Part shown: in pieces, positions 37,925-38,325 of the stretch
How positions within the stretch are numbered: position 1 is the stretch's first letter
How the letters are laid out: the number at the start of each line of letters is the position of its first letter
From: Micrococcales bacterium
GTDB taxonomy: Bacteria; Actinomycetota; Actinomycetes; Actinomycetales; Microbacteriaceae
Length of the DNA: 64,000 bases
Assembly: GCA_024639965.1 (NCBI GenBank)
Contig: JAHEGC010000006.1
Location: 6,796-70,795, forward strand
Direction: 5' to 3'
Translations under genes and position numbers: made by a program
The notes under the pieces: generated by a model
The model's database searches: none
What the model was told of the DNA's origin: nothing
What the model saw: the letters and a program-made list of their open reading frames with translations, nothing else

Positions 37925-38040
37925 CGCGTTTGGGCAAAAACCATGACGATCGCGATCGCTTCCGACCATGGCGGCTGAGCGCAGCGCAGCGAATTCGTTG
38001 GGGGCAGCCAACACGTTTTCTCTAAGAATGGACCTGAGGG

Positions 38041-38065
38041 CGCGAGAGTCCTGCGGACTCTCGCG
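38041..38065. repeat. Palindrome B: CGCGAGAGTCC-TGC-GGACTCTCGCG
   Basis: Perfect 11-bp inverted repeat. Confidence 0.95.
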
Positions 38066-38133
38066 TCTGAGCGCAGCGAAGCGAATTCGTTGGGGGCAGC
38101 CAACACGTTTTCTCTAAGAGTGGACCTGAGGGG

Positions 38134-38158
38134 CATGGCAGTCCAGTGGACTGCCATG
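38134..38158. repeat. Palindrome A1: CATGGCAGTCC-AGT-GGACTGCCATG
   Basis: Perfect 11-bp inverted repeat. Confidence 0.95.
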
Positions 38159-38199
38159 TTTGGCACGCTGTACCGCTGTCTAAGAGTGGACCTGCGGGG

Positions 38200-38224
38200 C
38201 ATGGCAGTCCAGTGGACTGCCATG
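38200..38224. repeat. Palindrome A2, identical to A1
   Basis: Perfect 11-bp inverted repeat, 66 nt from A1. Confidence 0.95.
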
Positions 38225-38252
38225 TTTGGCACGCTGTACCGCTGTCTAAGAG

Positions 38253-38325
38253 TGGACCTGAGGGGACTCGAACCCCTGACCCCCTGCATGCCATGCAGGT
38301 GCGCTACCAGCTGCGCCACAGGCCC
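38253..38325 (-). tRNA. tRNA-Ala(GGC)
   Basis: GGGCCTG/TG/GCGC-AGCTGGTA-GCGC/A/CCTGC-ATGGCAT-GCAGG/GGGTC/AGGGG-TTCGAGT-CCCCT/CAGGTCC/A folds as a 73-nt cloverleaf; CCA not encoded. Confidence 0.95.

Follow-up and report, generated by a model that had tools for sequence, protein, structure and literature searches.

Bacterial mobile DNA lands most often at tRNA ends and, to our knowledge, the known mobile systems at these ends carry an integrase. Integrases that target tRNA genes classically leave a copy of the tRNA tail beside an intact tRNA gene. Insertion of the casposon or Cas1 type also takes place at a tRNA 3′ end and duplicates its target, and the resulting arrays grow at the leader. In Escherichia coli MG1655, tail copies lie 178 bp apart behind tyrT/tyrV, as we checked in the sequence. 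For YPAL, one of the MITE-like repeats, target duplications of 3 to 26 bp have been described, with targets in or beside dyad symmetry (PMC2229807).

Here we analyzed a stretch of 64,000 nucleotides (the window, with 0 N gaps) in which tail copies behind a tRNA gene are each joined to a 25-nt hairpin. Our preferred reading, to which we give a probability of about 45%, is that these hairpins belong to a small palindromic element that targets tRNA genes and are its sites of insertion or recombination at the DNA level. The features of the array in the window are as follows.

38252..38325, minus strand: tRNA-Ala(GGC), the anchor of the array (ARAGORN; Rfam RF00005, 64.4 bits)
38245..38265, minus strand: original tRNA 3′ tail with the first trailer bases, the source of the tail copies (direct-repeat family D3)
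38200..38224, minus strand: hairpin A, copy 1, in the sense direction CATGGC-AGTCC-ACT-GGACT-GCCATG (read directly; match of covariance model R1)
38179..38199, minus strand: tRNA-tail copy 1, adjoining hairpin A copy 1 (D3)
38134..38158, minus strand: hairpin A, copy 2 (read directly; R1 match)
38113..38133, minus strand: tRNA-tail copy 2, adjoining hairpin A copy 2 (D3)
38067..38132, minus strand: direct repeat D1, tail and native flank beside hairpin B (64/66 identical to 37975-38040)
38041..38065, minus strand: hairpin B, in the sense direction CGCGAG-AGTCC-GCA-GGACT-CTCGCG (best R1 match in its own genome, 46.9 bits)
37975..38040, minus strand: distal copy of tail and native flank, without a palindrome (D1)
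37936..37971, minus strand: hairpin followed by a T run past the array, probably the tRNA unit's native terminator (fold and direct reading; found by the fold and absent from the list of a stricter scan)

From tRNA-Ala(GGC) outward, the tail and two rounds of spacer, hairpin A and tail copy are followed by a longer spacer, hairpin B, a tail copy, the same longer spacer once more and the T-run hairpin. The spacer of hairpin B falls inside the 66-nt direct repeat (64/66 identical) of tail and native flank. In an Rfam search of this region, the tRNA alone was above threshold; mir-74 and others were far under their gathering scores, and rtT RNA had no match at E-values up to 5. The sequence-only reading had recognized no described family, and indeed none matched; nor did we find a tRNA-linked hairpin family described in the literature.

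The three palindromes picked out in that reading were read directly at their coordinates with exactly the letters given. Types A and B have the same inner five pairs, and their outer six pairs are different yet fully paired. That this pairing is not due to chance was borne out: the 64-kb window has no other perfect 11-bp stem with a 3-nt loop, and 20 simulated windows of matching dinucleotide content yielded 1 such stem altogether. Both type A copies represent a single palindrome, copied as part of a 66-nt repeat (98% identity), so that the window alone yields just two independent stems. In both unit types the palindrome adjoins the tRNA-tail copy, as had been proposed. The final array unit, at 37975-38020, has lost its palindrome or never had one.

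Of 15 genomes from the window's genus, freshwater actinobacteria to which the isolate MWH-Ta3 (Microbacteriaceae) also belongs, 12 gave matches to a covariance model, R1, built from 15 hairpin sites. Each genuine copy was situated 3′ of a tRNA gene, had the same sense as this gene and was followed at once by a copy of the tRNA 3′ tail. The tRNA genes carrying hairpin units were Ala-GGC, Ala-CGC, Val-CAC, Val-GAC, Val-TAC and Arg-CCT; one Arg site (G009) was at a contig end and was assigned through its tail copy. A search of 396 genomes of the order with R1 returned the window's own genome and one weak match. In 400 Microbacteriaceae searched for the CG...CG form, only single, chance-like matches were detected outside the genus; their stems were incomplete, and we rejected them as family members. 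Among about 400 genomes each of the family and the order, the hairpin family is essentially confined to the window's genus. In the window's own genome, additional arrays follow tRNA-Val(CAC) and tRNA-Val(GAC), and tRNA-Val(TAC) is followed by a variant unit; among its 43 tRNA matches, no such hairpins were seen beyond the Ala and Val arrays.

Several observations concern neighboring or similar structures. In MWH-Ta3 (G010), the R1-type hairpin was absent, and 79-nt tail-bounded units behind tRNA-Val(GAC) (L291) bore another hairpin, CCGAGCC-TGT-GGCTCGG, with the final tail copy shortened to CTGGTTCGATC. At one locus behind tRNA-Ala(GGC) (L049), the tail CTCAGGTCCACC occurs twice in tandem with no hairpin. 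Compared with the window's own genome (L009), tRNA-Val(CAC) in G006 (L168), and likewise in G007 and G010, has the reverse orientation with respect to the Gly-Cys-Val(GAC) cluster. The window's own genome also has three 100-N gaps (L009:2061-2160, L107:1619-1718 and L151:935-1034), each flanked by 121-nt identical sequence. These are contig overlaps left unmerged, so one Val(GAC) unit and the second copies of tRNA-Val(TAC) and tRNA-Leu(CAG) are probably scaffolding artefacts. A genome from another family of the order (G056) had 35 AGTCCN3GGACT palindromes (L126-L145), mostly with a ACAGTCCACTGGACTGT-like center and some in short tandem groups. They were dispersed, imperfect and REP-like, with no tRNA linkage, and we treated them as separate; the resemblance of the center is possibly a coincidence.

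The site set comprised 31 sites, 26 of them retained as non-redundant, with sister species included. A site consists of a T(C/A)AGA foot, an 11-bp stem with C first and G last, a 3-nt loop and, immediately after it, the tRNA tail copy. The loop was R-C-N in 30 of 31 sites (ACT in 19, GCA in 6). Among the first 15 sites, pairing held in 97% of stem cells, two-sided changes were present at 6 of 11 pairs, and the covariation score was 0.442 versus 0.126 in shuffles. Copies exist in sister species, and their flanks are still complementary, so neither of the two outcomes named as refuting the sequence-only reading was observed. The AGTCC core, taken from the window as shared, is not invariant: AATCC/GGATT, AACCC/GGGTT, AGCCC/GGGCT and AGTGC/GCACT were found in sister species. 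The stems had also been thought to resemble the tRNA end itself. The longest word common to stem and own tRNA averaged 5.19 nt, compared with 5.12 nt for other tRNAs, so derivation from the cognate tRNA was rejected. Units that share a foot, and are therefore probably homologous, were three to six two-sided pair changes apart, and close orthologous sites differed by just a few one-sided changes. Both renewal of stems and their slow decay are thus visible.

Of the 341 stem cells, 330 were Watson-Crick pairs and 3 were G-T (0.9%). In tRNA stems of those genomes, 107 of 1428 cells (7.5%) were G-T, a contrast that its P value overstates, because the site rows are related to one another. An old transcript helix would be expected to be richer in G-U. 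The scarcity of G-T suggests that a constraint, or the mechanism by which the hairpins are born, acts on DNA strands.

The main rival of the DNA-element reading is a role in RNA. Here the hairpins would act in the tRNA 3′ trailer as terminators without a U run, as pause sites or as processing or stability elements, and would have multiplied by tandem duplication along with the tRNA tail. The constant tRNA sense, the placement of the first unit, mostly 27-38 nt past the tRNA, and the strong predicted folds (mean energy -16.3 kcal/mol) agree with such a role. So does conservation: among five orthologous Arg units, the mean difference was 3.2% in the hairpin and 9% in the foot, less than the 19% in upstream coding DNA, and 48% in the spacer. 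The foot and hairpin are therefore under constraint or are renewed, which also speaks for the DNA-element reading. A hairpin conserved between orthologous loci suits a host function as well, however, and this, like the probable location of every site in transcribed DNA, counts against that reading. For an RNA role, on the other hand, the near absence of G-T is unfavorable. The sites differ from an intrinsic terminator in having a tail copy in place of a U run, and past the Ala array a hairpin with a T run is already present. Most tRNAs of the window's genome have no such hairpin, orthologous tRNAs without any hairpin unit exist, and the tail copy after every hairpin is left unexplained. We consider a role in RNA possible but rather doubtful.

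The origin of the units could be followed by comparing empty and occupied sites. Of two orthologs of tRNA-Ala(GGC) linked to rsfS, one was empty (L046) and the other had one hairpin (L048), with a 39-nt direct repeat (one mismatch) of tail and native flank. The difference between them was a hairpin that has no nearby source. Behind tRNA-Ala(CGC) in G006, the repeat extended 16 nt into native downstream sequence. These comparisons indicate that the tail copy derives from the target: at orthologous tRNA-Ala sites, each unit contributes a single hairpin and a duplication of tRNA tail and flank. In Arg arrays, the tail copy agreed with the species' own tRNA, also where the hairpin was identical. 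The tRNA was intact in all arrays, with the tail copies coming after it. Tail copies were often intact when proximal and eroded when distal, a pattern suggesting that arrays grow on the side of the tRNA. Unit size was about 66-93 nt across six tRNA genes in many species. The length of the duplicated stretch varied from about 20 to 66 nt, which is unusual for a single transposase and counts against the DNA-element reading.

The same comparisons bear on neutral tandem duplication, in which replication would slip back from a palindrome to the tRNA tail, with the palindromes kept perfect by template switching. Some units are indeed near-exact or exact whole-unit tandem copies (Ala A, 66 nt; G014 Arg, 74 nt), and template switching alters both arms of a palindrome simultaneously. 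Neutral duplication would not explain why loop, foot and stem length are common to six tRNA genes, why the hairpins are confined to a single genus, why the last copy has no hairpin, or how an occupied site differs from an empty one by a hairpin without a source nearby. We regard this origin as very unlikely.

One unit bears genes. In G013 (L156:1426-3331), a 1.9-kb segment lies between two copies of GCCACGTTGAATAAG-hairpin-CTCC. Its GC content is 54.5%, compared with 60.4% in the surroundings, and the Arg loci retrieved from relatives do not contain it. The segment has three ORFs on the same strand, one with an Amidase_6 domain; the cargo proteins included nothing defence-like or recombinase-like and had no viral relatives. 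Every other unit is empty, and the singleness of this case counts against the DNA-element reading. With the tail copies beside intact tRNA genes, which fit the mark of an integrase, the insert could also point to units that are attR scars, that is, the remains of integrase-driven islands or satellites that attached at the tRNA tail and lost their contents. Such scars should decay, whereas the hairpins are conserved. The narrow range of unit sizes is unlike that of random deletion products, one hairpin design is found at all six tRNA genes, and no phage or viral contig matched. An origin as scars is thus quite unlikely.

The sequence-only reading had pointed to a RAYT/Y1 transposase or a tyrosine recombinase. 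PF01797 was found in 0 of 15 genomes of the genus and in 5 of 14 control genomes; with no Y1 transposase in the genus, a RAYT/Y1 origin was rejected. In the window's own genome (about 94% complete), two PF00589 proteins were present, which look like XerD (L176) and XerC (L177) from their sequences, and no integron integrase was seen among the PF00589 proteins read. None of the viral contigs and phage records carried a hairpin site beside a tRNA tail. They gave just chance matches with incomplete stems, and a phage or viral carrier was rejected. That neither a recombinase nor a viral or phage carrier was found for the units counts against the DNA-element reading.

According to the DNA-element reading, a small DNA element consisting of the T(C/A)AGA foot and the 25-nt hairpin would enter beside the 3′ end of certain tRNA genes and duplicate the tRNA tail together with some native flank. 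The tRNA would thereby be kept intact, and the next unit could be added at the tRNA-proximal end. By analogy with attC or REP sites, the hairpin would most likely be a folded single-strand insertion or recombination site. A protein would recognize the R-C-N loop together with the foot; of the stem, only pairing would be required. Foreign DNA may occasionally enter at a hairpin site, as the G013 segment might have done. An extension is possible, though unlikely: that the hairpins by tRNA tails serve as recombination sites in an integron-like cassette array of streamlined freshwater actinobacteria. It is founded on the one insert. An as yet unrecognized or borrowed (e.g. Xer) recombinase would run such a system, taking up genes behind essential tRNAs and leaving these unharmed.

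Empty, single, multiple and gene-bearing sites occur naturally as a series in this family, and the folded site is short and sharply defined; target choice and site structure are therefore directly testable. If the hairpin is an RNA signal instead, it would be a new lineage-specific element of tRNA trailers.

The units resemble the tyrT tail repeats, REP elements and attC sites, but defining features of each are missing. Like the tyrT/tyrV repeats of E. coli with rttR (rtT RNA), they are tandem units behind a tRNA, bounded by tail copies; the E. coli units are 178 bp long, occur at one tRNA locus, have no 25-nt hairpin before the tail copy and encode a small RNA and a small protein. With REP/BIME elements, which are mobilized by RAYT/Y1, they share a short palindrome, a conserved 5′ foot and variable arms, but they are confined to tRNA 3′ ends, instead of being dispersed in extragenic DNA, in a genus without Y1. 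MITE-like repeats (YPAL/RU-2, RPE) are also non-coding and palindromic with variable target duplications; the hairpin units are far shorter and tRNA-specific, with a fixed orientation and a covarying hairpin as their core. Islands integrated in tRNA genes likewise have a tail copy and an intact tRNA, whereas the units here are about 66-93 nt and the one cargo (G013) has no recombinase. In comparison with casposon or Cas1-type insertion, the inserted piece is one constant kind of hairpin. Integron attC arrays differ in that here a tRNA gene is the platform, the 25-nt sites have no attC boxes and nearly all units are empty. The two have in common a folded site whose structure is conserved and whose stem varies, tandem units that probably grow at one end and, perhaps, a gene-bearing unit between two sites (one case here).
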